From positions 1 to 47,019 of the forward strand of contig JAETUM010000020.1 of the NCBI GenBank assembly GCA_021768625.1: DNA of 47,019 bases, given 5' to 3'. Positions 638 through 16,776 of this stretch are shown here, piece after piece. The notes under the pieces are model-generated. The model worked only from the letters and a program-made list of their open reading frames with translations. It was not told where the DNA came from and did not search any database. The first letter of the stretch is position 1; every line of letters starts with the position of its first letter. Both the position numbers and the translations under genes were made by a program. This DNA comes from Candidatus Stoquefichus sp. GTDB lineage: Bacteria > Bacillota_I > Bacilli_A > Erysipelotrichales > Coprobacillaceae.

Positions 638-1738
638 ATGAGTATTCATAAAGATAATGCCACTGGAAAGTGGCGAGTAGTCTATCGTTATACCGATTGG
701 ACAGGAGAAACGCACCAGTCATCAAAAAGAGGATTTCCTACAAAACGAGAAGCACAGATGTGGGAACGAGAGCTATTGCTGAAGAAAGAAGCCAAACTGG
801 ATATGACTTTCGAAAGCTTTTATGAGATTTATGTGGAGGATATGCAAAATCGAATTCGTGATAATACCTGGGGAACGAAAACAAATATTGCCAGAACTAA
901 AATTCTTCCTTATTTCGGAAAGCGTAAAATAGGAGAAATTGAGCCAAGGGACATTATTGCATGGCAGAATGAATTGCTTGCGATCCGGCAGCCAAATGGA
1001 AAGCCGTATTCCGCCTCTTATCTGCAGAAAATTCACAGTCAGTTAAGTGCTATTTTCAACCATGCAGTTAATTTTTACCATCTTCCATCTAATCCAGCAC
1101 AGAAAGCAGGAAATATGGGAAAAGAGGAACACCGGGAAATGCTGTTCTGGACAAAAGAAGAATATTTGAAATTTGCAGATGCCATGATGGACAAGCCTGT
1201 TTCCTATTATGCGTTTGAAATACTTTACTGGTGTGGGCTTCGCATGGGCGAATTATTAGCACTTACACCGGCAGATTTCAATTTTGAAACGCATACACTA
1301 CGGATTAACAAGTCCTACCAGAGGTTGCACCGGGAAGATGTGATTACACCACCAAAGACATTAAAAAGTAATCGAACCATTAAGATACCGCAGTTTTTGT
1401 GTGATGAGATGCAGGATTATCTGAAAATGCTGTATGAGCCGAAAGAGGACGAACGGATTTTCACGATTTCCAAATCTTATCTGCATCATGAAATGAACAG
1501 AGGATCAAAAGTGTCTGGGGTGAAGCGAATCCGTGTGCATGATTTGAGACATTCCCATGTATCGTTATTGATCAATATGGGATTTACGGTATTAGCAATT
1601 GCAGATCGAATGGGACATGAGAGCATTGATATCACTTACCGATATGCACATCTGTTTCCAAGTGAGCAGACACAGATGGCAGAACAGCTGGATATTGAAA
1701 GGATGGAAAAATTAAATGGAGAAAAATCTGGACAGTAA
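638..1738 (+). CDS. int: Tyrosine integrase, Tn916-like
   Basis: A 366-residue site-specific recombinase that would integrate and excise the surrounding element. Order of parts: N-terminal arm-binding domain (residues about 1-50, GKWRVVYRY), SAM-like core-binding domain (about 60-165), and the catalytic domain. Catalytic residues visible are Arg in CGLRMGELLAL, HDLRHSHVS, GHES and the C-terminal Tyr in ITYRYAHL. The ATG follows GAGAGGAG. The length is close to the 380-400 residues usual for Tn916-type enzymes. The 3' end overlaps the next gene by 23 nt. All motifs are intact, so the element may still be mobile. Confidence 0.93.
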   Translation: MSIHKDNATGKWRVVYRYTDWTGETHQSSKRGFPTKREAQMWERELLLKKEAKLDMTFESFYEIYVEDMQNRIRDNTWGTKTNIARTKILPYFGKRKIGEIEPRDIIAWQNELLAIRQPNGKPYSASYLQKIHSQLSAIFNHAVNFYHLPSNPAQKAGNMGKEEHREMLFWTKEEYLKFADAMMDKPVSYYAFEILYWCGLRMGELLALTPADFNFETHTLRINKSYQRLHREDVITPPKTLKSNRTIKIPQFLCDEMQDYLKMLYEPKEDERIFTISKSYLHHEMNRGSKVSGVKRIRVHDLRHSHVSLLINMGFTVLAIADRMGHESIDITYRYAHLFPSEQTQMAEQLDIERMEKLNGEKSGQ

Positions 1739-2039
1739 AGGAAGATGGAGAAACAAAATCGTAGCATTCCGGGTATCACCGGAAGAAGCAGAGCAGATTG
1801 ATGCATGTGTCCGATTGTCAGGACTTAGCAAGCAGGACTATATCACAAAACGATTAACTGATCGGGAAATTGTGGTACAGGGGAACCCAAGAGTCTATAA
1901 AGCATTGCGAAATCAGATGGCAGAGATTTATGAAGAATTGAAACATCTGGAAAAATGCAGTGAGGAAAACGAAGAGTTGCTGAGTACCCTGAGATTGGTT
2001 GCAGAGACATTGTATGGATTGAAAGGGGATAGTGAATGA
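1716..2039 (+). CDS. MobC-like mobilization accessory protein
   Basis: 107 residues. The N-terminal half (KIVAFRVSPEEAEQIDACVR, then LSGLSKQDYITKRL) has the strand-helix-helix pattern of ribbon-helix-helix MobC/NikA-type proteins, which bind oriT and help the relaxase. The C-terminal half (about 60-100) is acidic and likely coiled-coil. It overlaps the integrase at its start and the ATPase at its end (ATGA overlap), so translation is probably coupled. The relaxase is about 4 kb downstream in the same element. Function is inferred from fold pattern and context. Confidence 0.7.
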   Translation: MEKNLDSKGRWRNKIVAFRVSPEEAEQIDACVRLSGLSKQDYITKRLTDREIVVQGNPRVYKALRNQMAEIYEELKHLEKCSEENEELLSTLRLVAETLYGLKGDSE

Positions 2040-3190
2040 CAGTAAAAGAAAAAATGACTGCTCCGATTGCATCTGTTGGCGCAGATGTGGAACAGCCATT
2101 ACAAAATTTAAAAACCAACCAAAGTATAGCAGATTTGCCCGGTAAGGGCAATCTGCAAGCCACAAATAATGCGGAAAATACAGCAAAATCAGCAAATAAA
2201 AAGAATCCAGATGATCTGGAAATAGTTTCTATGATGGAATTATACGATACCGCATATCCACCAAAACTGCCAATTGTAGATGGACTTCTGTATAACGGAA
2301 CTTACCTGTTTGTTGGTTCGCCGAAAATTGGAAAATCATTCTTTATGGCACAGATCGGGTATCACATCAGTAAGGGACTTCCATTGTGGGGCTTTTCAGT
2401 CAGAAAGGGAACGGTTCTGTATCTGGCATTGGAAGATGATTATGCAAGGTTGCAAAAGCGGTTATCACAGATGTTTGGAATGGAAGGCAGTGAGAATTTC
2501 TATTTCGCTACAAAATCTAAATCGCTCAATGACGGACTGGAAAAACAGCTTGTAACGTTTGTAACAGAGCATAAAGACGCAAGATTGATTATCATTGATA
2601 CTCTTCAGAAGGTTCGAGAGGTCGGTGGAGATAAATTCAGTTATGCCAGCGATTATGAGATTGTAACGAAGCTGAAAGCATTCAGTGATAAATATGGTAT
2701 CTGTTTTCTGGTTGTGCATCATACAAGGAAAATGGAATCTTCAGATAGTTTTGATATGATTTCCGGTACGAATGGATTGCTTGGAGCTGCGGATGGAGCG
2801 TTCGTCATGCAGAAAGAAAAACGGACAGATAATAAGGCAGTTCTGGAAGTGGCAGGGCGTGACCAGCAGGATCAGAAACTATGGTTGAACTTTAACCGGG
2901 AGAGATGTGTCTGGGAACTTACCAAGACAGAGACAGAACTTTGGAAAGAACCAGAAGATCCAGTGTTGGAAAAAATCAAAGAGCTTGTAACAGAAACTAC
3001 GCCAGAGTGGGCAGGAACAGCAACAGAGCTAGTGGAAGTATTGCAGGTGGAAATGCAGCCGAACGCATTATCACGAAAATTAAATGTCAGCCTGGAACGA
3101 TTGATTCTGGAATATGGAATCCAGTATAAAACAGAACGAGGACATGATGGAAGAAAGATCAAATTAGCCTTTGTTGGAAAACAAGCGTGA
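2036..3190 (+). CDS. RepA-like AAA_25 ATPase (replication helicase type)
   Basis: 384 residues with a RecA-fold ATPase core. Walker A is in FVGSPKIGKSFF (about residues 91-102), followed by YLALEDD, and a Walker B-like strand in RLIIIDTLQKV, then a sensor strand FLVVHHTRK. This is the RepA/AAA_25 family: hexameric replicative helicases of plasmids and helper ATPases of mobilizable elements. A Pro/Gln-rich N-terminal tail (about 1-60) precedes the core, and a C-terminal winged-helix-like segment (about 310-380) may bind DNA. It is immediately followed by the GTGACG repeats, which makes autonomous replication of the excised circle plausible. Confidence 0.82.
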   Translation: MTVKEKMTAPIASVGADVEQPLQNLKTNQSIADLPGKGNLQATNNAENTAKSANKKNPDDLEIVSMMELYDTAYPPKLPIVDGLLYNGTYLFVGSPKIGKSFFMAQIGYHISKGLPLWGFSVRKGTVLYLALEDDYARLQKRLSQMFGMEGSENFYFATKSKSLNDGLEKQLVTFVTEHKDARLIIIDTLQKVREVGGDKFSYASDYEIVTKLKAFSDKYGICFLVVHHTRKMESSDSFDMISGTNGLLGAADGAFVMQKEKRTDNKAVLEVAGRDQQDQKLWLNFNRERCVWELTKTETELWKEPEDPVLEKIKELVTETTPEWAGTATELVEVLQVEMQPNALSRKLNVSLERLILEYGIQYKTERGHDGRKIKLAFVGKQA

Positions 3191-3268
3191 CGATATGTGA
3201 CGGTTGTGACGGTATTTTATATAGCGTGACGGTAGTGAAAATATCGTCACTATCGTCACGACCGTCAC
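3187..3268. repeat. Iteron-like GTGACGRT repeats forming a large hairpin
   Basis: Four direct copies of GTGACGRT start at 3187, 3197, 3206 and 3226; three inverted copies (ATCGTCAC, ATCGTCAC, ACCGTCAC) start at 3243, 3252 and 3261. The central part folds into a 14-bp stem: 3225-3238 pairs with 3247-3260 with one G-T pair and an 8-nt loop. The block begins in the last codons of the RepA-like gene and ends just before the ribosome site of the next gene. Either a replication origin bound by the ATPase, an operator array, or an RNA hairpin limiting translation downstream; no T-run follows, so it is not a classical terminator. Confidence 0.65.
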
Positions 3269-3281
3269 GGAAAGGAGAAAC

Positions 3282-3524
3282 ATGGAAAGAAAATCACAGG
3301 TACAGATACCCAAAGATTTATTACTGGCATTGTTCCAGTATCATCTTGCCGGGAACGAGGAATATCTGCCGGAGATAGAAAAAGCATTGATGGAAAAATT
3401 AGACAGTATGGTAAAACGTCAGTTATATACAACATTCAAAACAGCACCAACCGAGGAAGAACGGGAAAAGGCAAGACAAGAGTACTTGGATAAGTGTGGA
3501 ATGCATGAGGACTTTCGTTGGTAA
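3282..3524 (+). CDS. Small hypothetical protein of the mobilizable element
   Basis: 80 residues, charged and predicted mainly helical, with no motif I recognise. It starts at ATG 3282 behind AAAGGAG and lies just downstream of the iteron-like block. Composition and codon use match the neighbouring element genes. Its position between replication ATPase and DUF5348 gene suggests an element-maintenance role, but no function can be read from the sequence. Confidence 0.6.
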   Translation: MERKSQVQIPKDLLLALFQYHLAGNEEYLPEIEKALMEKLDSMVKRQLYTTFKTAPTEEEREKARQEYLDKCGMHEDFRW

Positions 3525-3673
3525 GGATTCTGCTTGATGACCTTATGACAGGAGCGTGCCACGCACCTGTAGATAGCAGACAAGGAGAAGTCCGGAATGC
3601 GAAGCCGAAAGTGTGTTGGAAATCCGGAAAATGACGGATGCTTTGCAGGTGGCAAAGGGGGCCCCTGAAACGG
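3525..3673. other. Structured non-coding stretch, interrupted by the IS
   Basis: No gene here. A strong hairpin pairs ACAGG (3548-3552) with CCTGT (3566-3570), with an inner GCGT/ACGC helix. TCCGGA occurs twice further on. At 3657-3665 GGGGGCCCC forms the left arm of a GC-rich hairpin whose right arm (GGGGCTCCC, from 5236) was separated by the IS4 insertion. Before the insertion this region ran straight into the DUF5348 gene. It may be a regulatory RNA leader or a transfer-related site. Confidence 0.4.
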
Positions 3674-3751
3674 TAATGTCATTAACTTAAGAAAATTTAT
3701 AAAATAAAACAGAAAAAGGTCTTGACAAATGTCAGAAAAAATGTGGCGAAG

Positions 3752-3779
3752 CCTCCTTGAATGAATACATTTTAGGAGG
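3752..3779 (+). promoter_or_regulatory. Hairpin that can hide the transposase ribosome site
   Basis: CCTCCT at 3752-3757 is the exact complement of the AGGAGG ribosome site at 3774-3779, with a 16-nt loop. A transcript reading in from outside would fold and mask the site, whereas one starting inside would lack the left arm. This is the known strategy by which IS elements avoid activation by external transcription. Seen in sequence; effect inferred. Confidence 0.45.
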
Positions 3780-3787
3780 AATTGCTA

Positions 3788-5086
3788 ATGAACTTTTACG
3801 CTGATTATGTCCGCAACAAACTCAACGCTGCCATTTCCAGCATGTCCAGTCAGATAGAAGATTACGTCAAAAATCCCGGGCATGATTTTACCAGAAATCG
3901 GAAGATGAACTTTACCTCGACAATAAACTTTCTACTTACTATGGAAGGTGGTTCACTTAACTCAGAATTACATAAATACTTTAATTATGATCTGAATCAA
4001 ATAACCCGTTCTGGTTTCATAAAACAAAGGAACAAATTGAAACCAGATACCATGGAACATTTATTTCACAAATTTCATGAGCAGATATTATGTAACAAAA
4101 AATACCAAGGCTATCAGTTACTTGCCTGTGATGGTTCTGACTTGAATATATTTCGTGATCCACTAAATCCACACACGTATTTTGCTGGTAAAGAAGGAAC
4201 TTTTGGTTTTAATCAACTGCATCTTAATGCCTTGTATGACCTCCAAAGCAGGCGATATGTCGATGCTCTGATTCAGGAGCCTTATGAAGAAAATGAATCC
4301 TCTGCCATGATTGAAATGATTAAAAAGCTGACTGCAAATCAGAAGACTATCATTATGGCAGATCGTGGATACGAAACTTATAATATTTTTGCAAATATTC
4401 AGGAACGTGGTCTCTTTTATCTAATCCGGATTAAAGATACCTCGAAAAAAGGCAGCATTTCTGGAAGCCTTTCCTTGCCGGTATCCTGTGAATTTGACGA
4501 AGAAATCGAACTGATTATGACCCGTAAACAAAAGTTTTATAAAACGAAAGGTTATAAATATCTCTCAAATTCATCGCCATTTGACTTTCTTGATTCTGAG
4601 AATTTGTTTTATACACTTCATCTCAGACTCACACAGTTTCAGCTGGAAAATGGAGTTTATGAATGTATAGCCAGCAATCTGGATAAAGAAGAATTCCCAC
4701 CTGAAAAGATCAAGGAACTTTATCATATGCGATGGGGAATCGAAACTTCTTTCCGTGAGCTGAAATATACGATTGGCCTGACAAATCTTCACTCTAAAAA
4801 TGTGGAATATATCTGTCAGGAAATTTACGCAAAACTGATCCTGTATAATTTTTGTGAAATTATTTCAGCAAATATCATACTGGAAGAAAGAAACCGTAAG
4901 TACACATACCAATTAAACTACACAATGGCAATTCAAATATGCAGGCATTATCTGCGCCAGACATTTGTAACGATAGATGTTGAAGGTCTGATTAAGAAAG
5001 AACTATCGCCCCAAAGACCACACCGACAATATCAGCGTCGAGTAATAAAGAAACGATGGGTTAGTTTCGCATACCGTATAGGATAA
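3788..5086 (+). CDS. IS4-family DDE transposase
   Basis: About 432 residues. The DDE catalytic core is visible: first Asp in LLACDGSDLNIF, second Asp in IIMADRGYETY, and the family-defining Y-(2)-R-(3)-E-(6)-K signature in YHMRWGIETSFRELK. The ATG at 3788 follows AGGAGG at 8-nt spacing; an upstream TTG at 3782 is too close to that site. The gene fills the IS, leaving about 110 bp and 140 bp to the ends. Codon use differs somewhat from the surrounding element. No frameshift or stop is seen. Confidence 0.95.
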   Translation: MNFYADYVRNKLNAAISSMSSQIEDYVKNPGHDFTRNRKMNFTSTINFLLTMEGGSLNSELHKYFNYDLNQITRSGFIKQRNKLKPDTMEHLFHKFHEQILCNKKYQGYQLLACDGSDLNIFRDPLNPHTYFAGKEGTFGFNQLHLNALYDLQSRRYVDALIQEPYEENESSAMIEMIKKLTANQKTIIMADRGYETYNIFANIQERGLFYLIRIKDTSKKGSISGSLSLPVSCEFDEEIELIMTRKQKFYKTKGYKYLSNSSPFDFLDSENLFYTLHLRLTQFQLENGVYECIASNLDKEEFPPEKIKELYHMRWGIETSFRELKYTIGLTNLHSKNVEYICQEIYAKLILYNFCEIISANIILEERNRKYTYQLNYTMAIQICRHYLRQTFVTIDVEGLIKKELSPQRPHRQYQRRVIKKRWVSFAYRIG

Positions 5087-5279
5087 AAAATTATTCAAAT
5101 GAATATAGCTGGCAAAAAGCAGACTTTTGGTTTGTTTATTTGTTATGCGTAAATCTTGTGATTTTTCAAGAAAGCTAATCTGAACACTTATTACAATAAT
5201 CGAAATTTTCTTAAGTTAATGACATTACCTGAAACGGGGCTCCCTTAGAGAAAAATGATGAATAAAGGAGAACGATGTA

Positions 5280-5507: not shown

Positions 5508-5832
5508 ATCTAACAGGGAAATAGAAGAAAACGAAATAGATAATCTGTGGTCAGAAAGAAAAGTAGCTCGGATACGGGCATAAAAACTGGGCGGATACGC
5601 CCAAGATGAAAAGCATAAGCCGGACAGTAATTGTTACAGGCAGCATTTATCAAAGCCCTCGGCGTTTGAGAGCGAAATACACCCATCGCACAAAACTGCG
5701 TTTTATGCTCAAGGGTATTTCGCCCTGCCGGGAGCTGATTATGCCGGACACGGCAATAAGTTCGTAAACGGATGCCTGAGCATCCACTCACAAAAAATAT
5801 GGCAGAATTTACTTTGCTGAAAAAAGGAGGGA
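5508..5832. other. Intergenic region with candidate oriT
   Basis: No clear gene in this 325-nt gap before the relaxase. A nested palindrome is present: GCGAAATA (5672-5679) pairs with TATTTCGC (5716-5723), CCC (5682-5684) with GGG (5713-5715), and inside it CGCA (5687-5690) with TGCG (5697-5700) around a CAAAAC loop. A location directly upstream of a MobA/MobL gene plus nested inverted repeats is the usual form of an origin of transfer. The nick site cannot be assigned from sequence alone. Confidence 0.45.
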
Positions 5833-7383
5833 GTGCCTATCGCAAGAAATTCATTTATCCAATTGACGAAATTAAGTAATGTAAAAGGTCGGATCACTTA
5901 TATATCCAGCCATGCAAAACAGGAAAATCTTTATGCAGTCTATGAGACTACGGAGCGAAAATTCTGGCGGGAACTTGCAAAATGTAATCAGGAAGAGTTT
6001 GCAAAAAGTGGAACAGAAGGGAAATGTATTGAAGCACGAGAACTGATTATTGCTTTACCAGAGAGTTTTGTGGAATATCCGCCAGATAGATTGTTGAAGC
6101 TGTTTACAGAGCATTTCAAACAGAACTATGGAACGGAATGCATTGCAGCATTGCACCACAATAAGAGGAAAACGAATTATCATATTCATCTGATTTTTGC
6201 AGAACGAAAACTGTTGGCTGAACCAATCATTAAGATTGCCAGCCGGAATATGTTTTATGATGAAAATGGGAAACATGTCCGTACCAAGAAAGAAATATTA
6301 GGAGAAGACGGAAAAATCCGGGAAGGCTGCCATGTCGTGAAGAAGGGCGAGATTTATGAGAAGAAGTTGTTTACAGTTAAGGATGAACGGTTTAAAAGCA
6401 ATTCTTTTCTGGATGAAGTGAAGCGTTCCTATACGGACCTGATCAACCTTTATGTGAAAGATGAAAAACAGAAGCTGCAAGTATTTCAACGTGGCAGTGT
6501 TTATCTTGCAACAAAGAAAATCGGAAAACGTAATCCCAAGGCTCCGGAAATCGAAGCGGATAATCGAAAACGCCAGGAATGGAATCGGGCAGTTGACATG
6601 GCACTGATCAGCGGAATTCCAGAACCGCAGATTATGGAAGTGAAACAAAAAAGAATTTCAGAGCCAATCAAGAGTGCAATTTCCCGGAAAGGAAGAAAAC
6701 CAAACTTATTTGCAAAAGTTGTTACGATGGCGATTGAGGCATTGGAACTGATGATAGAAAGCGTACTTGTGAAAAAGTATAAGGAATCATTGGAACAGAA
6801 AGAAGAATTACAGAAAACAGATGCTTCTGAAATGCAGACTGTAATGCCAGAAACAGAGCGAACAGAAGCAGAAATTAACGAGCCAGTGGAAAGATTGCCA
6901 GAACCGAAACAGCCAGAAATGACAAGAATGGCATCAAAATATCCGAGATTTTATAAGATTTACAATGAACTAGAACAGCAGAACAATGCAATTTATAAGA
7001 AAGAGAAACAACGTTCTGCCAAGAAAAAAGAATTGTCTGAGATCAAAGGCTGGTTTAAAGGAAGAAAGAAAAAAGAATTGCAGGAAGAAATCGATGATAT
7101 GGCAAGCCAGATCCGGAATATGAAAGATTATCTTCCGAAGATCGTACAGAAAGTTGGTTATAGAAGCATACAGGAATTTCTGAAAGACTTCAAAACTGCA
7201 AAGTCTGAGCACAGTCAGTATCAGAAGGCAATCGCACAGTGGCAACAAGAAACAGGAAAAGAGCCAGAGCCACAGCCACATGGTGTCAGGGCAAAGTTGG
7301 CAGCAAACAGAAAGAAAATAGAACAGGAACAGAAAAACATGCAGCGTACCCGAAGCCAGAATCAGGATCGAGGGGTGAGATAG
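5833..7383 (+). CDS. MobA/MobL-family relaxase
   Basis: 516 residues. The N-terminal ~200 residues form the relaxase: ISSHAKQENLYAVYET (with Tyr candidates for nicking) and the metal-binding motif in NYHIHLIFAER (about residues 116-126). The remainder is highly charged, likely coiled-coil (about 330-500). It would nick oriT and pilot the single strand during mobilization by a helper conjugative element. The GTG start at 5833 lies only 2 nt after AAAGGAGG, an unusually short gap, but the reading frame upstream closes at 5818-5820, so no earlier start exists. No type IV secretion genes are visible, so transfer would depend on a helper. Confidence 0.88.
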   Translation: MPIARNSFIQLTKLSNVKGRITYISSHAKQENLYAVYETTERKFWRELAKCNQEEFAKSGTEGKCIEARELIIALPESFVEYPPDRLLKLFTEHFKQNYGTECIAALHHNKRKTNYHIHLIFAERKLLAEPIIKIASRNMFYDENGKHVRTKKEILGEDGKIREGCHVVKKGEIYEKKLFTVKDERFKSNSFLDEVKRSYTDLINLYVKDEKQKLQVFQRGSVYLATKKIGKRNPKAPEIEADNRKRQEWNRAVDMALISGIPEPQIMEVKQKRISEPIKSAISRKGRKPNLFAKVVTMAIEALELMIESVLVKKYKESLEQKEELQKTDASEMQTVMPETERTEAEINEPVERLPEPKQPEMTRMASKYPRFYKIYNELEQQNNAIYKKEKQRSAKKKELSEIKGWFKGRKKKELQEEIDDMASQIRNMKDYLPKIVQKVGYRSIQEFLKDFKTAKSEHSQYQKAIAQWQQETGKEPEPQPHGVRAKLAANRKKIEQEQKNMQRTRSQNQDRGVR

Positions 7384-8135: not shown

Positions 8136-11114
8136 ATGAACAAAGAAAGATTATCAAGATTAATAACCCAGTATCAAAAGAACCTTGAATTTTATAGAAA
8201 TGCAAGAGAATTTAATGAGCAAGATTGCCGAGATGAATTTATAAGTCCATTATTAGAGAGTTTTGGATGGGATGTACATAATGAGAAGGGAACATCACCA
8301 CAATACAAAGAAGTGGTTGTGGAAAAATTTTCAAATAGTGGGGATAGACCGGACTATACATTAACCTTAAATGGAGTATCAAAAATTTTTGTTGAAGCGA
8401 AGAAGCCGGCAGTGAATATAAAAGAAGAATCTGAACCTGCAATTCAGGCAAGACGTTATGGATGGAATGCAAAACATAAATTATCCATATTAACAAATTT
8501 TGAGGATATGATGATTTATGACGTTACAAATAAACCGCAAGATGGAGACGCAGCAACGGTGTCGCTGTATCGGAAATATCATTATTTAGAGTATTTAAAA
8601 AAGTATGAAGAAATATATGAATTGATTTCAAGAGAAAGCGTTTATACTGGAAAATACGATGAATATGTTGAAGAAAAATTTCCAAGTGAAGATCGATATT
8701 CAACAGAAGTAGATGAAGTCTTTTTAAAACAAATTAATGAGTGGAGATTGGAAATTGGTGACTATCTGTACCATATGGATAGTACTTATAGAGATATAGA
8801 GTTTTTGAACGATGCGGTTCAGGAGTTTATAAATCAAATTATCTTTTTGAGAATTTGTGAAGACAGGAACTTGCCTTTATATCAAAGTTTAAAAGAAACA
8901 GCTCAGAACAAGGTGGAATTACAAGATGCACTGACAAAAGTATTTAAGGAAGTTGATAAAAAATATAATTCTAAGTTGTTTGCGGGTGATAATATTATTT
9001 TTGATCTAAATAATGAAATTATTTTTAATATGATTCTTTCATTGTATTATCCTAAGACTCCCTATATGTTCAATATTATTGAACCAGGAATTTTAGGAAA
9101 AATATATGAGAGTTTTTTAACAGAAAGCCTTATTGAAAGAGAAAACCATATAATACTTGCTGCGAAGAAAGAATATAAGTATCGATCAGTAGTATCGACT
9201 CCTGTCGAAATTGTAAAGTATATGGTAAAGAACACGTTAACACCAATTTGTGAAGAAAAAACACCAGACGAAATAAAGAAAATTCAGATTGCTGATATTG
9301 CATGTGGATCTGGAATATTTTTGGAGGAAGCATATCAATTTTTAGTTGATTATTGTACAGAATGGTATATGCAAAATGATCCAGAGCATTTATTAGAATT
9401 GAGCAATGGGAAAAAGAAGCTGCCATTGACTGATAAAAAAGATATTTTAACGAAATGTATTTATGGTGTAGATATTGATGTACATGCTGTTGAAGTTAGT
9501 AAATTTTCGTTACTGATAAAATTAATAGAGGATGAAACACCGGCATCTGTGAAAGAATGTGTTCCGATTTTACCGGATTTAAGTTCTAATATAAAAAATG
9601 GAAATTCATTGATCTGTAGAGAAGATATTCATGGTAAAGAATTGCCAATAGAAGTGTTGTGTAACATAAAACCATTTGAATGGGAAACGATTAATGGAGG
9701 AGCTAAATTTGATGCTATTGTTGGCAATCCACCATATGTAAAAACTGAGGATATACACACATTAGAGACAGAGGAAGAATTTGCAGTTTATAAAAAGAAA
9801 TATAAAAGTGCATATAAACAGTTTGATAAGTATTTTTTATTTCTTGAAAAAGCATTTGATCTCTTAAAAGAAGACGGTCAGATGTGTTATATCGTACCAA
9901 ACAAATTTTATAAAATAGGAGCAGGGCAAGAACTACGTCGCATAACAGCTAAATATGTGTCAAAATTGGATGATTTTGGAGATATGCAACTTTTCCCGGA
10001 TAAAACTATTTATAGTTGCATTATTACACTATGTAAAGAATGTAATAAACAGCTGCAATATACGAATGTTATTTCGTTAACTGATCTCTGGACTGGTGAA
10101 GAACAAGAAAATATTGAAATTAAGAATGAAATGTTGGACGAAAATCCATGGAGATTAACTACAGATATTAAATTTATGAAAATGATCGCCAAGGTAGAAG
10201 AACATGGCAAACCATTAGGAGAAATAGTAAATATTTTTAACGGAATTCAAACAAGTGCAGAAAGACCTAAGCCGGTGTATTGGTTTAGTAAAGATGAAAT
10301 TGTTTCGGAAAAAGAAGACGAAATAATTGTTGATAAGTTTGAAAAAAGATATCATATAGAAAAAAGCATTTTAAAGCCTTTCTTTAAACCTACTAAGGCA
10401 GATGAAAAAGGAATGGGAACTTATTCAATATTAAAAACAGATAAACATATTATTTTTCCGTATAATGCAGATGGTAGTCTGATTAGCATTGACGTTATGA
10501 AAAAAGAATATCCAGGAACATATCAATATTTGGAAGATTGTTATGAGTTATTGGTGCCTAAATGCTTAAATGGTGGAAAAGGCCGAGATATTAAAAATGC
10601 AACAGCGGATACATGGTATCAGTATGGAAGAACTCAAGCAATAACTGCGTTTGTGAATACTCCAAAGTTGATTGTAAGAATTTTGAGTAAAGATCCCATG
10701 TATGCATACGATGAAAATAATATGCTTATTGCTTCTGGAGGAACAGCAGGATATTGTGCTATATCAAAACTGCCTGATTCAAAATATGATTTACGATATA
10801 TACAAGCATGGTTGAATCATCCGTATACTGAAAAACTATTTCAAATTATGGGAAGTGATTTTGAAGGAGGATTTACAGCAAGGGGAACATATCTGCTGAA
10901 AAAGATACCTTTTGTTGAGTTGGATTTTAATGACAAAATACAAAAGGCATTGTATGAATCTGTACTTGTTTCTGTAAAGAGAATTAGAGAATTGAATAAT
11001 GTGTTAGAGCAGAAGAAAGATAAAGCCTCCGTTGGTGTAATTGAAGCGGAAAAAGAGAATTTAAGTAAACGAATTGAAGATGATATTACAAAAATTTATA
11101 ATTTGCAATTTTAG
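8136..11114 (+). CDS. Bifunctional Eco57I-like restriction-modification enzyme
   Basis: 992 residues. The N-terminal ~130 carry a PD-(D/E)XK-type nuclease module: RPDYTL (Asp about 73) and FVEAKKP (Glu about 87, Lys about 89). After a helical linker comes an N6-adenine methylase with SAM motif I in ADIACGSGIFLEEA (about 387) and catalytic NPPY (about 531-534), followed by a TaqI/Eco57I-like target-recognition C-terminus. This layout, cutting and methylation in one chain, is that of type IIG/IIL enzymes. Start ATG 8136 follows AAGTGGGG. The next gene begins 8 nt downstream. All key residues are present. A separate methylase downstream is unusual but known for IIG systems, whose own methylation often covers one strand only. 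Confidence 0.85.
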   Translation: MNKERLSRLITQYQKNLEFYRNAREFNEQDCRDEFISPLLESFGWDVHNEKGTSPQYKEVVVEKFSNSGDRPDYTLTLNGVSKIFVEAKKPAVNIKEESEPAIQARRYGWNAKHKLSILTNFEDMMIYDVTNKPQDGDAATVSLYRKYHYLEYLKKYEEIYELISRESVYTGKYDEYVEEKFPSEDRYSTEVDEVFLKQINEWRLEIGDYLYHMDSTYRDIEFLNDAVQEFINQIIFLRICEDRNLPLYQSLKETAQNKVELQDALTKVFKEVDKKYNSKLFAGDNIIFDLNNEIIFNMILSLYYPKTPYMFNIIEPGILGKIYESFLTESLIERENHIILAAKKEYKYRSVVSTPVEIVKYMVKNTLTPICEEKTPDEIKKIQIADIACGSGIFLEEAYQFLVDYCTEWYMQNDPEHLLELSNGKKKLPLTDKKDILTKCIYGVDIDVHAVEVSKFSLLIKLIEDETPASVKECVPILPDLSSNIKNGNSLICREDIHGKELPIEVLCNIKPFEWETINGGAKFDAIVGNPPYVKTEDIHTLETEEEFAVYKKKYKSAYKQFDKYFLFLEKAFDLLKEDGQMCYIVPNKFYKIGAGQELRRITAKYVSKLDDFGDMQLFPDKTIYSCIITLCKECNKQLQYTNVISLTDLWTGEEQENIEIKNEMLDENPWRLTTDIKFMKMIAKVEEHGKPLGEIVNIFNGIQTSAERPKPVYWFSKDEIVSEKEDEIIVDKFEKRYHIEKSILKPFFKPTKADEKGMGTYSILKTDKHIIFPYNADGSLISIDVMKKEYPGTYQYLEDCYELLVPKCLNGGKGRDIKNATADTWYQYGRTQAITAFVNTPKLIVRILSKDPMYAYDENNMLIASGGTAGYCAISKLPDSKYDLRYIQAWLNHPYTEKLFQIMGSDFEGGFTARGTYLLKKIPFVELDFNDKIQKALYESVLVSVKRIRELNNVLEQKKDKASVGVIEAEKENLSKRIEDDITKIYNLQF

Positions 11115-11122
11115 GTGAGAGA

Positions 11123-12751
11123 ATGATATTAAAAGAGGATAGTTCAGAACAAAAATTAAGAGGTGCTTATTATACACCGTTAAAATTAGCCAAAAAGATG
11201 GTTGATTTTTTTAAGGATGATTTATCTATAAAATCCATATTAGAACCAAGCTGTGGTGATGGAGTATTTGTAGATGCATTACTAGAAAGTCAATTTTTAT
11301 CGCAGCATAAAAGGGTAACCGCTATAGAAATCGAAAAAAAAGAAGCGGAAAAATTAAGTGAAAAGTTGAAGGATAATTCGAATATAGATGTTGTGAACGG
11401 AGATTTTTTTGAGTTCTATCATAAACATAAAGATATGGACACATATGATTTGATATTAGGAAATCCACCATATATTCGCTATCAATATCTGGAAGAAAAA
11501 CAAAGATCTGAAATGGCTGAAATCTTAACAAGTCATGGGATGAAAGCGAATAAATTAATTAATACTTGGGTTGGATTTATGGTTGCTTGTGTTCATATGT
11601 TGAGCGATAATGGGAAAATCGCATTTGTGATTCCGGCAGAAATTTTACAAGTTGCATATGCGGAGGATTTGAGGTTATTTTTATCTAATAAATTGTCCAA
11701 AATAACATTGTTAACATTTGAAGAGCTAGTTTTTCCAGGAATTGAACAGGAAGTGGTAGTTTTTATTGGAGAGAAGGGAGATTCGGAAAAAGGTATAAAA
11801 ATTGTAGAGCTAAATAATCTTGAAGATTTAGAAAATCTTAATATATATGAAAATGGTTTTCAGAAACTCAATCATGTGCATGAAAAATGGACAAAGTATT
11901 TTACAACTATACAAGAAAACCAATTGATTTCAGATTTAAAAAGAGATAATAGATTCCAAACATTGTCTGAAACGGGCATTATTAATGTAGGAATTACAAC
12001 CGGAAATAATAAGTATTTTTCAGTAAATAAAAAAATTGTTGAAAAATATGATTTAACAGATGTTGTACGACCACTAATAGGAAGAAGTTCTCATGCTCAT
12101 AGTGTCTATTTCAAAGAGGAAGATTGGAAAGAAAATGTAGATCAAGGAAAATCAGCATATTTGATAGATTTTCCAGATACATTGCTTGAGAAATATAGTC
12201 GAGGGCAAAAAGATTATATTGAATTTGGAGAGAAAAATGGTGAGAACACAGGATATAAATGTAAAATCAGAGAAAAATGGTATCAAATACCGTCGGTATG
12301 GGTACCGGATGCTTTTTTCTTGCGTAGAAATAACTTGTATCCTAAATTTGTATTGAATTGTTGTGCTGCTGTTTCTACTGATACTATGCATAGGATAAAA
12401 TTTAAAGAAGGTATTGAGCCAGAGAGAATAATTTTATCGTATTATAATAGTATTTCCTTTGCGTTTACTGAAATATGTGGACGCAGTTATGGTGGTGGAG
12501 TACTGGAAATATTGCCTGGAGAAGTGGGAAAGGTTTTGGTTCCTGTTTTAGATTGTGTTCCACTTGAAAAGGTCAGAGAAGTGTTGCATCAAGTAGATCA
12601 GATTGTTCGTAATGGGGAGAACATTGAGAAGGCATTAGATATTGTGGATAATGGTATTTTGAAAGAGTATTTAGGTATTGATGAGAAAATGTGTTCTATG
12701 TCGAGAGGAATATGGAAGAAGATGCAGCATAGAAGATTGAAAAGGGGATAG
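11123..12751 (+). CDS. N6-adenine DNA methyltransferase, TaqI/Eco57I type
   Basis: 542 residues. It begins RGAYYTPLKLA, typical of this class; motif I is ILEPSCGDGVFVDAL (about 40-54), and the catalytic NPPY is in ILGNPPYIRYQY (about 114-117). The C-terminal ~250 residues should recognise DNA. There is no nuclease module. It starts 8 nt after the bifunctional enzyme and ends one base before the PLD gene, so the three are one transcription unit. Probable job: to protect the host by methylating the second strand or a related site of the same restriction system. Confidence 0.85.
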   Translation: MILKEDSSEQKLRGAYYTPLKLAKKMVDFFKDDLSIKSILEPSCGDGVFVDALLESQFLSQHKRVTAIEIEKKEAEKLSEKLKDNSNIDVVNGDFFEFYHKHKDMDTYDLILGNPPYIRYQYLEEKQRSEMAEILTSHGMKANKLINTWVGFMVACVHMLSDNGKIAFVIPAEILQVAYAEDLRLFLSNKLSKITLLTFEELVFPGIEQEVVVFIGEKGDSEKGIKIVELNNLEDLENLNIYENGFQKLNHVHEKWTKYFTTIQENQLISDLKRDNRFQTLSETGIINVGITTGNNKYFSVNKKIVEKYDLTDVVRPLIGRSSHAHSVYFKEEDWKENVDQGKSAYLIDFPDTLLEKYSRGQKDYIEFGEKNGENTGYKCKIREKWYQIPSVWVPDAFFLRRNNLYPKFVLNCCAAVSTDTMHRIKFKEGIEPERIILSYYNSISFAFTEICGRSYGGGVLEILPGEVGKVLVPVLDCVPLEKVREVLHQVDQIVRNGENIEKALDIVDNGILKEYLGIDEKMCSMSRGIWKKMQHRRLKRG

Positions 12752-12752
12752 A

Positions 12753-13898
12753 ATGGCAGATTTTAAATATATAATGCAGGGGTTTCAAAAAGATATAAAT
12801 TTTTTTGATGAAATAAAAGAAGTACTTGAAACAGAAGATTATACATCCATTTGGATATTGACAGCATTTGTTAATGAACGTGCTATATGTAATCTTATGC
12901 CAAGCATTAAGAAATCAAAAGCGGATATTTCATTTATTATAGGAATAAGAAACAATGTATCAACATATCAGGCTTTAAAATGTTTAATAAATATGAAGGT
13001 GAGCGTATTTGTATTTGATACGGCGAGAATAGAATCCATTTTTCATGCTAAAGTAATTGTAGGAAGTGGGACAAATTCTGCAAAAGTTATATGTGGAAGT
13101 GCAAATATAACTACAGGTGGTCTGGCTAATAATATAGAGGCTGGAATTATTAGCAAACTAAATTTAAGATGTGAATCAGATGAAAAATTTTTAACAGAAG
13201 TAAGAGAATATATTGATAACATAATTCATAATTATCCCCAAAATGTGAAGAAGATTTCAGAAGATAGAGAACTTGATGAATTGTATGAGCAAGGACTTGT
13301 TGTAGATGAAAATCAAAGAAAGCTTAGGAATAATTTTTTTTGTGCAAGCAAGGAAAAACAAGAAAAGTCTATAGTTTCACGATTTCCATTAGTAAATAAA
13401 AAATTATTAAATTTTGGAAAAAAACAGAAACACACAAATGCCATACTGAGAAAATTAGATCAGGTTATTGTTGAAGAAGTATGTGAAGAAGTTTGGAAGA
13501 GCAATAAATTGACAAAATCGCATTTGGGAATTGTGAAAAAAGGTACACATGCAAAAGGTGAAATGAGTTTAGGAAAAGGTCAATATAGACAAATTGATCA
13601 ATTTACTTACTTCCGAGATACAGTTTTTCGAGATTTAGACTGGAAAAATAATAAAAGTGGAGATGAAATAGCAAACGCATATTTTACCATGATAATATGC
13701 GGGATTAATTATGGAGAGTACAAATTAAGAATATTGCATAAGCGAAAGGGAATGGTAGCATATCAGCAGAATAATTATGTAACAAGTATTCGATGGGGGG
13801 ATGTTTCGCATTTGTTAAAAAATGAAAATTTGCTTGGAAGAGAATTGGTAATATATAAAACATCTGATAAAGAACGTTATGTAATTGACATTGAGTGA
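12753..13898 (+). CDS. PLD-family nuclease (restriction-like)
   Basis: 381 residues. A single phospholipase D half-motif is visible: His and Lys in FHAKVIVG, then GSANITTGG and downstream Glu in IEAG (about residues 96-130). Single-motif PLD proteins dimerise and act as metal-independent nucleases, as in BfiI and NgoFVII restriction enzymes. The C-terminal part (about 180-380) has no recognised domain and may recognise DNA. It is coupled to the methylase (stop and start one base apart; AAAGGGGA ribosome site). In this setting it is most likely a second nuclease of the same defence system; a DNA repair function is possible. Confidence 0.75.
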   Translation: MADFKYIMQGFQKDINFFDEIKEVLETEDYTSIWILTAFVNERAICNLMPSIKKSKADISFIIGIRNNVSTYQALKCLINMKVSVFVFDTARIESIFHAKVIVGSGTNSAKVICGSANITTGGLANNIEAGIISKLNLRCESDEKFLTEVREYIDNIIHNYPQNVKKISEDRELDELYEQGLVVDENQRKLRNNFFCASKEKQEKSIVSRFPLVNKKLLNFGKKQKHTNAILRKLDQVIVEEVCEEVWKSNKLTKSHLGIVKKGTHAKGEMSLGKGQYRQIDQFTYFRDTVFRDLDWKNNKSGDEIANAYFTMIICGINYGEYKLRILHKRKGMVAYQQNNYVTSIRWGDVSHLLKNENLLGRELVIYKTSDKERYVIDIE

Positions 13899-13956
13899 AA
13901 AGTTTATAAAAAGAAAAATTAAATATCGCTTTATTGCAGTATGGAAAGGATGAAGC

Positions 13957-16776
13957 ATGAAAAATACAAGAGGATCTGAATGGAATAAATGGGATTTACA
14001 TATTCATACGGCGTCATCATATGACAGCCCGTATAAAGCAGACGATGCAGATGAATTATTATGTCAAGCATTAGCAGAAAATGATATAAAAGCAGTTGCT
14101 ATTACGGATCATTTTAAAATAGACAAAACAAGAATAGAACACTTAAGAAAACTTGCACCGGAAATTGTGTTCTTTCCTGGGGTAGAGCTGCGAACTGACA
14201 AAGGAGCAAATAATTTACATCTGATTCTTATCTTTTCAGAACTATCAGATTTAGAGACTTTATCAGCAGATTTTAACGCAATAATGTTACGAACATTGGC
14301 TAAATCAAAGGAGTCAGATGAAACTATTTATTGGCAGTTTGACGATATTGTGGAGTTTTGTAAAAATCATGGAGGATTAATTTCTATTCACGCAGGGAAG
14401 AAATCAAATGGTATTGATAAAGAGATTTCAAATGCATTACCGGTAAAAGAGGCAATTAAATCAGATATTGCTAAGCATGTTGATTTTTTTGAAGTGGGAA
14501 AGAAGAAAGATATAGTAGATTATTATAAATATGTTTTTAAGGAAATTGATGAAAAACCAATTATTTTATGTTCTGATTGCCATGATCCAAGAAAGTATAG
14601 TGCAAAGGAATCGTTATGGATTAAAGCCAATGTGACATTTGAAGGATTAAAGCAGTGTATTTTCCAGCCATCAGAAAGAGTATATGTAGGAACAATACCG
14701 GCAGCGGTAGATAGGGTAAATAAGAATAAAAAAGCTAATATAGATAGTTTATCTGTTCATAGAATAATTGAACCCAAAAATGATGGAGTAAGTTGGTTTG
14801 ACTTTGATATATCGTTGAATGCAGGATTAGTGGCAGTAATTGGAAATAAAGGTAGCGGTAAGAGCGCTTTTTCAGATATAATCGGGCAAGTTTGCAAATG
14901 TAGAACGATGGGGAGTGCCTCTTTTTTAAATGATAACCGTTTTAGAAAGATGCCAAAGAACTTAGCAAGTGATTATATTGCGGAAATCAAATGGAAAGAT
15001 GGCCATTTAGAACGAAAAGGATTAGATGTCAATGAATTTGAGACAGTAATAGAGGATGCACAATATCTACCGCAAAAATATATTGAAGATGTATGTAATG
15101 ATATTGGAAATATCTTTCAGGAAGAAATTGATAAAGTGATTTATTCTTATGTCGACAGAACTGAAAGAGGAAGTGCTGCAAATTTGGCTGAATTAGTAAA
15201 AAATAAGTCACAAATGATCCAGATAGAAATGGAAGGTGTATACAAAGAAATTGAAAGACTTAATGAGTGCATTATTCGATTAGAAAGGAAAAAGACAAGC
15301 CAATATCGTTTGTTAATTGTAGATAGTCTGAAAAAATATCAAGAAATTTTGGAAAGACATGAAAAAAATAAACCACAAGAAATAAAGAAACCAGATGAAA
15401 AAGAGGAAAACATACAATATCAAGAAAAATTAAAAGAGATAGATAAAGAAATTACAGAATTAAATCAAAAAGTAGAACAAAATAGAGATGAACTTACTAA
15501 AATTAATGAAGCAATTGGTGAAACAGAACAAATAATTGCTAAATTGCGAGTGCTTAGAAGTGAATTTGGTGATATTAAAGAGGAATTGAATGTATATCTA
15601 AAAAAATATCAGTTGGAAATTAAAGAAGATTTTTGTTTAAAAGATCCGTTGGAAATAATAGAACAATATAAAAATAAACTAATTACAGATAAGACAATAA
15701 AACAATTGACATTAAACGGAAGTCCAATGGAAAAAGGCTTGCTTAATGAACTTAAAATTGCGCATGACAAGAAAAATGATCTTATATCAACTTCTGATAT
15801 TGAAGAGAAAAAATATCAAAAATATTTGAATGATTTACAAGATTGGGAGAAGGAAAAACAAAAAATTATTGGGAGTCAAGACACAGAAGACTGTTTAACA
15901 TATTATAAATCTGAGAAAGAATATCTTGATAATATTTTAGAGACAGATTATCATAGAGCTCGTGAAGAACGTAATATTAAATTTAAGGAATTATTTGTTT
16001 TAAAACAGCGAATTGTTATAATATATCAAGAGATTTATGCGCCGATTGAGCAAGAAATAAAGAAATTGTTGGGAGATTTGGAAGAAACTATTGAATTTCA
16101 AGCTGAAATGCAATTAATGGATAATGATTTTTCAAACAAAATTTTATCTTCCATTAGTCAAAGATTTGCAGGTGTATTTAAAGGGAAGACGGAAGCTAAT
16201 AATAGAATAACAAGGTTGCTTAGAAGTACAGAATTTTCAGATGAAAATAGCGTACTTGATTTAGTGAACAGCATTATTTTAGCAGTAGATGAAGATATAG
16301 ATAATTCTGAGAAAAAAATTACGGATAAAAAAGAATTTTATGATTATTTATATGGTTTAGAATACGTAGGGGTTTCATTCAAATTGAAGATGGGAGGTAG
16401 AGATTTAGAAGAATTATCTCCGGGTGAAAGAGGTATTGTTTTACTGATTTTTTATTTGGCGTTAAGTCAAAATAGCATACCTATAATTATAGATCAACCA
16501 GAAGATAACTTGGATAATCAATCGGTATATAATAAATTGGTTCCGTGTATTTGTGCGGCTAAACAAAAGAGGCAAGTAATTATCGTAACACATAATCCCA
16601 ACATAGCTGTAGCTTGTGATGCGGAACAAATTATTTGTTGTAAAATGGATAAAAATACTCACAAAATCACATATTTATCAGGTGCAATTGAAGATCAAGA
16701 AATTAAGCAGAATGTAGTTGATATTTTAGAGGGAACAATGCCGGCTTTTGATTTGAGAAGAAGAAAATATGTTTAA
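13957..16776 (+). CDS. PHP-domain / SMC-like ATPase (TrlF type)
   Basis: 939 residues. The N-terminal PHP phosphoesterase has its metal-binding set: DLHIHT (residues 13-18), AITDHF, FPGVEL, SIHAG and SDCHD (about 210). The ABC/SMC-type ATPase follows: Walker A in IGNKGSGKSAF (about 294-304), a long coiled-coil (about 395-720), signature LSPGERG (about 819) and Walker B IIIDQPEDNLD (about 845). This matches the TrlF family (PHP plus RecN-like ATPase) known from defence islands. The gene starts 58 nt after the PLD gene with its own GGAAAGGA site and ends the operon. Likely a DNA- or RNA-end processing effector; activity not proven by sequence. Confidence 0.85.
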   Translation: MKNTRGSEWNKWDLHIHTASSYDSPYKADDADELLCQALAENDIKAVAITDHFKIDKTRIEHLRKLAPEIVFFPGVELRTDKGANNLHLILIFSELSDLETLSADFNAIMLRTLAKSKESDETIYWQFDDIVEFCKNHGGLISIHAGKKSNGIDKEISNALPVKEAIKSDIAKHVDFFEVGKKKDIVDYYKYVFKEIDEKPIILCSDCHDPRKYSAKESLWIKANVTFEGLKQCIFQPSERVYVGTIPAAVDRVNKNKKANIDSLSVHRIIEPKNDGVSWFDFDISLNAGLVAVIGNKGSGKSAFSDIIGQVCKCRTMGSASFLNDNRFRKMPKNLASDYIAEIKWKDGHLERKGLDVNEFETVIEDAQYLPQKYIEDVCNDIGNIFQEEIDKVIYSYVDRTERGSAANLAELVKNKSQMIQIEMEGVYKEIERLNECIIRLERKKTSQYRLLIVDSLKKYQEILERHEKNKPQEIKKPDEKEENIQYQEKLKEIDKEITELNQKVEQNRDELTKINEAIGETEQIIAKLRVLRSEFGDIKEELNVYLKKYQLEIKEDFCLKDPLEIIEQYKNKLITDKTIKQLTLNGSPMEKGLLNELKIAHDKKNDLISTSDIEEKKYQKYLNDLQDWEKEKQKIIGSQDTEDCLTYYKSEKEYLDNILETDYHRAREERNIKFKELFVLKQRIVIIYQEIYAPIEQEIKKLLGDLEETIEFQAEMQLMDNDFSNKILSSISQRFAGVFKGKTEANNRITRLLRSTEFSDENSVLDLVNSIILAVDEDIDNSEKKITDKKEFYDYLYGLEYVGVSFKLKMGGRDLEELSPGERGIVLLIFYLALSQNSIPIIIDQPEDNLDNQSVYNKLVPCICAAKQKRQVIIVTHNPNIAVACDAEQIICCKMDKNTHKITYLSGAIEDQEIKQNVVDILEGTMPAFDLRRRKYV

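Follow-up and report, generated by a model that had tools for sequence, protein, structure and literature searches.

In SaPI Rep and in SCCmec Cch2, the C-terminal domain binds repeats located immediately downstream of the gene that encodes the protein; two hexamers have been proposed, the SCCmec origin is putative, and the motors carry DUF927 or Primase_Cterm/D5-like domains (passages of PMC7581432). In the IncQ plasmid RSF1010, the iterons of oriV are recognised by a separate protein, RepC (passages of PMC4234260 and PMC8965321). ORF904 of pRN1 has a C-terminal winged helix, and an origin of ~100 bp lies right downstream of its own gene, a layout similar to that of phage BIP-1; pRN1 uses an SF3 helicase, no iterons were found there, and integrity of the stem is required (parts of PMC4234260). 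PrimPol-PV1 primases combine a RepA-type helicase with a C-terminal WH domain for which a role in origin recognition has been proposed (parts of PMC5862659); the word iteron does not occur in the main text of that report, and the cis partner described below is absent from the passages available. According to the relevant passage of a 2017 review (PMC5704250), replication of excised integrative mobilisable elements had never been studied.

We describe an array of GTGACGRT units at the end of a RepA/DnaB-like AAA_25 helicase gene in a 47,019-base stretch of DNA, the whole of which is referred to as the window (Table 1). Judged by comparison with relatives, the array is likely to be an iteron-type vegetative replication origin of an integrative mobilisable element, recognised by the upstream helicase itself; this comparison lends support to an earlier note made from the DNA, which had proposed a candidate origin of the excised element. 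By analogy, SaPI Rep and SCCmec Cch2 are the closest working model. As in SaPI Rep/ori, the repeats lie directly downstream of the helicase gene; the protein has a predicted C-terminal winged helix, a candidate reader of the iterons. In contrast to SaPI Rep and SCCmec Cch2, the motor is a RecA-fold, RepA/DnaB-like AAA_25 domain, with no DUF927, Primase_Cterm or D5 domain, and the unit sequence also differs from those of SaPI and SCCmec. Because its motor has another fold, we do not assign the helicase to the SaPI Rep family; the best reading is that the array would work in the manner of SaPI Rep/ori, driven by a motor of RecA fold. With RSF1010 the locus shares a RepA-type RecA-fold helicase together with iteron recognition, the latter predicted in the window, but whereas RSF1010 uses a separate RepC, the winged helix of this locus belongs to the same polypeptide as the helicase. 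Like pRN1 it has a candidate origin downstream of the gene and a winged helix; unlike pRN1, which needs its stem, arrays of this type keep no special in-register pairing, though covarying pairs exist. PrimPol-PV1 chains resemble Prim-Pol-AAA_25 relatives of the helicase. A full-text search of the open-licence literature found no published description of the array. The apparent novelty is an iteron-origin variant whose helicase probably recognises it; a candidate origin of 82 bp, the protein likely to read it and a pairing of residue and base are offered for testing.

Table 1. Positions of the array, the helicase gene and neighbouring genes in the window
Feature	Position	Strand	Remarks
Tyrosine integrase gene	638-1738		
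NikA-like mobilisation protein gene	1716-2039	+	Overlaps helicase start; Pfam
RepA/DnaB-like AAA_25 helicase gene, predicted initiator	2036-3190	+	Pfam, profile, fold
Winged helix at the C terminus, residues 309-379; predicted to bind iterons	2960-3172	+	AlphaFold2 model; array accompanies domain
Asn343 codon, start of predicted recognition helix	3062-3064	+	Residue tracks unit base 7
Direct unit F1, GTGACGAT	3187-3194	+	Includes helicase stop codon 3188-3190
Direct unit F2, GTGACGGT	3197-3204	+	
Direct unit F3, GTGACGGT	3206-3213	+	
AT-rich spacer, 29 bp, candidate unwinding region	3214-3242	.	Spacers of 49 arrays average 67% AT
Extra direct unit F4, GTGACGGT	3226-3233	+	Within spacer; poorly conserved
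Inverted unit R1, GTGACGAT	3243-3250	-	
Inverted unit R2, GTGACGAT	3252-3259	-	
Inverted unit R3, GTGACGGT	3261-3268	-	
80-aa ORF after array	3282-3524	+	No family match; frequent, not constant, beside arrays
IS transposase	3782-5086		
MobA/MobL relaxase	5833-7383		

Genetic context

By its gene content, the layout around the array is that of an integrative mobilisable element, which also carries a DUF5348 gene between the IS transposase and the relaxase. The IS (~3674-5227, region 3664-5237) has inverted ends and CCTGAAACGG on both flanks, likely a target duplication; loci L004 and L018 seem to lack the IS because DUF5348 lies ~1.6 kb closer to the helicase there. An inverted repeat, AGAGCGAAATAC/GTATTTCGCCCT, at 5669-5726 upstream of the relaxase gene is a candidate transfer origin. 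Probable defence genes make up the cargo at 8136-16776: one for an Eco57I/BREX-like methyltransferase, another that resembles a methyltransferase gene, one that weakly matches DISARM DrmC, and one for a TrlF-family ATPase.

Anatomy of the array

GTGACGRT matches the window eight times, seven of them within 3187-3268, against a window-wide mean of 0.38 and a maximum of 2 in 100 dinucleotide shuffles, and repeat finders agree with an array at this place. The earlier note had counted seven 8-bp units, four direct and three inverted, and both count and coordinates proved exact. Start-to-start spacings are 10, 9, 20, 17, 9 and 9 bp. The 9-10-bp spacing that it had reported therefore holds inside each triplet but not overall, the unit at 3226 sitting in the spacer, and a strict spacing of one helical turn fails in distant relatives, where units are 8 bp apart. 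Likewise, the array does adjoin the RepA-like gene, as had been stated, but begins inside it rather than after it: the TGA stop codon is part of the first unit, as in 21 of 49 three-plus-three arrays. The conserved core consists of three direct units, an AT-rich spacer of ~29-30 bp and three inverted units, most commonly with the geometry 10, 9, 29 or 30, 9, 9. It is taken as three plus three because a spacer unit matching GYGWCR occurs in 8 of the 49 arrays (those of six relatives plus the window and L001, these last two representing one locus), which makes F4 mostly private. In common with iteron origins, the array has several direct repeats adjoining an initiator-type gene and an AT-rich segment beside the iterons.

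Helicase and C-terminal winged helix

AAA_25 is the sole Pfam match of the helicase (E 1.8e-26). A profile comparison links it to RSF1010 RepA (E 4.3e-6 to 1g8y), with whose family it shares a RecA-fold RepA-like ATPase core, and Foldseek matches its fold to DnaB, Twinkle, T7 gp4 and RepA (1olo and 1nlf among them). The whole chain was modelled as well as residues 300-384, which AlphaFold2 folds into a winged helix with a mean pLDDT of 91.3. Structural neighbours of this domain include DNA-bound CtsR (Z 7.2) and initiators of the RepE type; scores of this order (Z about 7) are common for models that have no clear match. A Foldseek search restricted to the winged helix returned nothing at E 0.001. 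Some relatives are linked to primases: that of L088 is fused to Prim-Pol and PriCT_1, and that of L058 overlaps a CHC2 zinc-finger primase-type gene. On the 8.3-kb plasmid pATHE01, with seven listed genes, a Prim-Pol-AAA_25 protein is the sole replication-type protein; the helicase family is present there and no array of this type was found.

If the array is an origin read by its own helicase, with a hexameric RecA-fold helicase and winged-helix DNA binding taken from the families, the C-terminal winged helix would bind the two opposed triplets of 8-bp iterons as double-stranded DNA. One helicase ring would probably be nucleated per triplet and the AT-rich spacer would melt between the triplets, an unwinding that would allow the excised circle to replicate and to be maintained as cells divide.

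Predicted folding of the array

The minimum-energy RNA fold of the array comprises two stems, an outer one of 18 bp and an inner one of 9 bp (-40.2 kcal/mol, z -6.3), and folding as DNA gives z -5.9; the array does fold on itself, as had been noted, but the 14-bp stem reported for the RNA was an understatement. Minimum-energy and centroid RNA structures differ, and pairing registers compete because the units are alike. Units within a locus change in concert: across 41 distinct three-plus-three arrays, agreement beyond shuffling is clearest at positions 1, 2 and 7, and base 2 agrees in 95% of unit pairs compared with 67% after shuffling (0 of 500 shuffles as high). Selection for a hairpin would make facing units match best, which they do not: pairing in the 41 arrays is 84.5, 95.4 and 94.8% in register and 92.1-97.0% out of register, and a hairpin is therefore considered unlikely to be the selected feature. 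Concerted units without an in-register excess are as for double-stranded iterons, and the fold is probably a by-product of their inversion.

A function of the array as a folded hairpin is accordingly unlikely, strong as the predicted folds are, whether the hairpin would serve in DNA as an origin of the single-strand or cruciform kind, like that of pRN1, or in RNA as a signal or terminator before the next ORF. RNAalifold finds compensatory changes in 14 of 24 stem pairs, which inverted repeats evolving in concert would give as well, and pRN1 replication needs a stem-loop right after the replication gene (parts of PMC4234260); against this stand the pairing registers, A/T flips at unit position 4 that disrupt the stem in 18, 10 and 10 of the 41 arrays, and the lack of a T-run after the array. 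No Rfam family scored above threshold, two miRNA models at E 0.25 and 0.36 being far below theirs, which rules out a known RNA family.

The array among helicase relatives

Relatives of the helicase comprised the best 80 of 102 from genome contigs and others from viral contigs, whole genomes, and phage and plasmid records. Array variants occur in many gut Lachnospiraceae and relatives, and a first detector found the array in 95 of 112 loci with a helicase match (the window and L001 are the same locus). A strict detector was applied to 136 helicase ORFs (L001, L118 and L119-L137 excluded beforehand), from which two rows with <150 bp downstream and seven with only a core fragment were dropped. 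Where the C-terminal domain was kept, 93 of 104 ORFs had the array and 11 did not; ORFs without the domain had it in 2 of 23 cases and had neither in 21, and in the two array-only loci (L054, L070) the winged-helix domain is encoded in another frame. The rows of this table are related and thus not independent cases; divergent cores alone give 17 with domain and array, 7 with the domain only, none with the array only and 21 with neither. Background for the strict detector was 2 in 27,200 shuffles and 7 in 1,624 other windows, five of the seven belonging to the L065/L067/L069/L073/L077 group; the two members of this group that were inspected each showed a second array. In L065 (at 4035) and L069 (at 6891), a second, near-identical array lies ~0.8 kb beyond the first. 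The invariance of the units is in part a product of the unit detector, which fixes positions 3 and 5 and restricts some others; the MAFFT alignment was unforced, but its 37 arrays were chosen by the unit detector.

Relatives with an intact ATPase and no repeats, which the earlier note had named as contrary cases, were thus sought among the 104 ORFs with the domain, and the 11 misses turned out to be displaced, shortened or degenerate arrays or other dyads when read by eye, without control. The array is displaced by ~200 bp in L007 and shortened or degenerate in L073, L056 and L045; TGAC-type dyads were seen in L116, L089, L091, L106 and L111, a GGACAG-type dyad in L002 and a TACGAT-type dyad in L142. 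The AAA_25 gene of L002 (reverse strand) is a second, distant gene in the same genome with 25% identity, and its GGACAG-type dyad follows directly. Iterons can act in copy control and partition, and the array might be a partition, incompatibility or coordination site instead of a replication start; since it goes with a replicative-type helicase, and no partition genes were noticed within the first 8 kb, we give this the least credence of the alternatives.

Genes flanking the array are less constant. Among 79 arrays at loci with at least 1 kb on either side, homologues of the NikA-like protein are missing at 31 (E 1e-4, which remote homologues may escape), homologues of the 80-aa ORF at 32, and both at 24. 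Neither protein is likely to be an obligatory partner of the array, which weakens the MobC-like candidate of the earlier note in that role. Two records filed as bacteriophage, L113 (MT836902.1) and L117 (MT838829.1), look like mobilisable elements because of their gene content: both have the integrase, NikA-like protein, helicase, array and 80-aa ORF, and L113 also has the relaxase. A MobA_MobL relaxase is present in the L058 and L055 relatives too, and Pfam identified no NikA-like protein in the four small ORFs upstream of the L058 relaxase.

These counts bear on two further readings. Regulation by the helicase winged helix, bound to the array as an operator of its own operon or of downstream genes, would suit a domain that resembles regulators such as CtsR and an array placed between two genes, and origins and operators frequently overlap; yet the array stays behind the helicase gene even at loci that lack the 80-aa ORF, and relatives carry primase domains or adjoin a primase-type gene, so that we consider an operator rather unlikely. 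We regard it as very unlikely that the NikA-like protein reads the array as a transfer origin or relaxosome site: the element does encode a NikA-like protein and a relaxase, and so, for the relaxase, do the L058 and L055 relatives, but many array loci have no NikA-like homologue at E 1e-4 and Pfam finds none in the small L058 ORFs, dyads follow phage primase-helicase genes as well, and a separate inverted repeat lies upstream of the relaxase. An origin recognised by the adjoining helicase remains the preferred reading.

Residue 343 and unit base 7

The 87 helicases compared (mixed locus L064 excluded) divide into 20 loci in which C predominates at unit base 7 and 67 with A/G there. His343 occurs at 17 of the C loci and at none of the A/G loci, 57 of which have Asn; Gln343 is found with both base types. 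The link was noticed by eye ahead of a column scan, in which residue 343 ranked top of 318 helicase columns for base 7 (phi 0.84, next 0.66; 53 clusters). The His/C state occurs in three separate places on the helicase-core tree, several forks of which have weak support. Even cores that are nearly identical differ: His goes with C in L058, L059, L060 and L063, and Gln with A/G in L061 and L071. A conservative tree-based sign test on four supported independent pairs was not significant (median p 0.25). Read by eye, newly fetched loci have Asn343 in all 13 closer domains inspected, and none of the arrays inspected is mostly C at base 7. In a single instance, L156, the array (~2511-2566) has the unit core TGAAG, not TGACG, and the arginine normally found at domain position 74 (residue 373) is missing from the helicase.

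Genome-wide occurrence

A DNA-only model of the array, run over 315 genomes of the order, matched at 13 distinct places spread over 12 genomes, and an AAA_25 gene adjoins the array at all 13, two of which (the window and G040) belonged to the training set of the model. The reverse search with the helicase in 309 genomes of the same order gave 14 places at E 1e-40, of which 10 coincide with an array match. The remaining four (G139:C160, G127:C22 twice and G278:C9) were read by eye: L158 has a TGAC-type dyad, L156 a TGAAG-type dyad and L162 at best a degenerate one, and no dyad was seen after the helicase of L161. Class-wide, four helicase places were found in 3 of 395 genomes. In viral contigs, an exact array pattern had no match and neither had the L058 helicase. 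Among the matches listed for a loose gapped pattern, many may be due to chance. No closed replicon with the array as its only origin candidate was found. NZ_LR134447.1 (L366-L370), labelled plasmid 5, carries polA, rpsA, uvrA, uvrB and uvrC and appears to be part of a chromosome, and OY725838.1 is a circular record without annotation.

Dyads after other AAA_25 genes

A motif-free test for two direct and two inverted 6-mers, 8-11 bp apart with at most one mismatch, found dyads at 97 of 212 AAA_25 gene ends, compared with 4 of 4,240 shuffles and none of 202 upstream windows; dyads were missed at 115 of the 212 ends, partly because the test is strict. The first set had dyads at 67 of 127 AAA_25 ends versus 0 of 1,672 other ORF ends of the same loci. 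A later set, mostly of viral contigs but including 12 whole-genome loci, had them at 30 of 85 AAA_25 ends versus 2 of 1,073 other ORF ends, with 9 of the 85 rows at least 90% identical to the first set. With helicases clustered at 90% identity, dyads are present in 23 of the 61 clusters that contain new loci only (13 of 45 at 70%). Dyads follow 81 of the 135 helicases that have this C-terminal domain and 16 of the 77 that lack it; dyads of other units follow several helicases without a recognisable copy of the domain, for example in L138, L192, L211, L214, L221 and L235.

DnaB-type helicases usually require a separate initiator or loader. It is possible, and we put it forward tentatively, that RecA-fold (RepA/DnaB-like) helicases of integrative elements, plasmids and phages form a broad class that recognise their own origins, the C-terminal part of each reading a dyad of ~9-bp iterons situated immediately behind the helicase gene, with units whose sequence changes as the domain does; in integrative mobilisable elements, this would be a system for replicating the excised circle in which neither initiator nor loader is a separate protein. 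If so, a self-recognising DnaB-type helicase would be a compact alternative, and the arrangement would aid origin annotation in mobile elements and phages.

In the viral contigs L213, L215, L217 and L225, primase-helicase genes are followed by TGAC/GTCA dyads in reverse order, with the inverted units first; L215 and L217 sit among phage DNA-metabolism genes.
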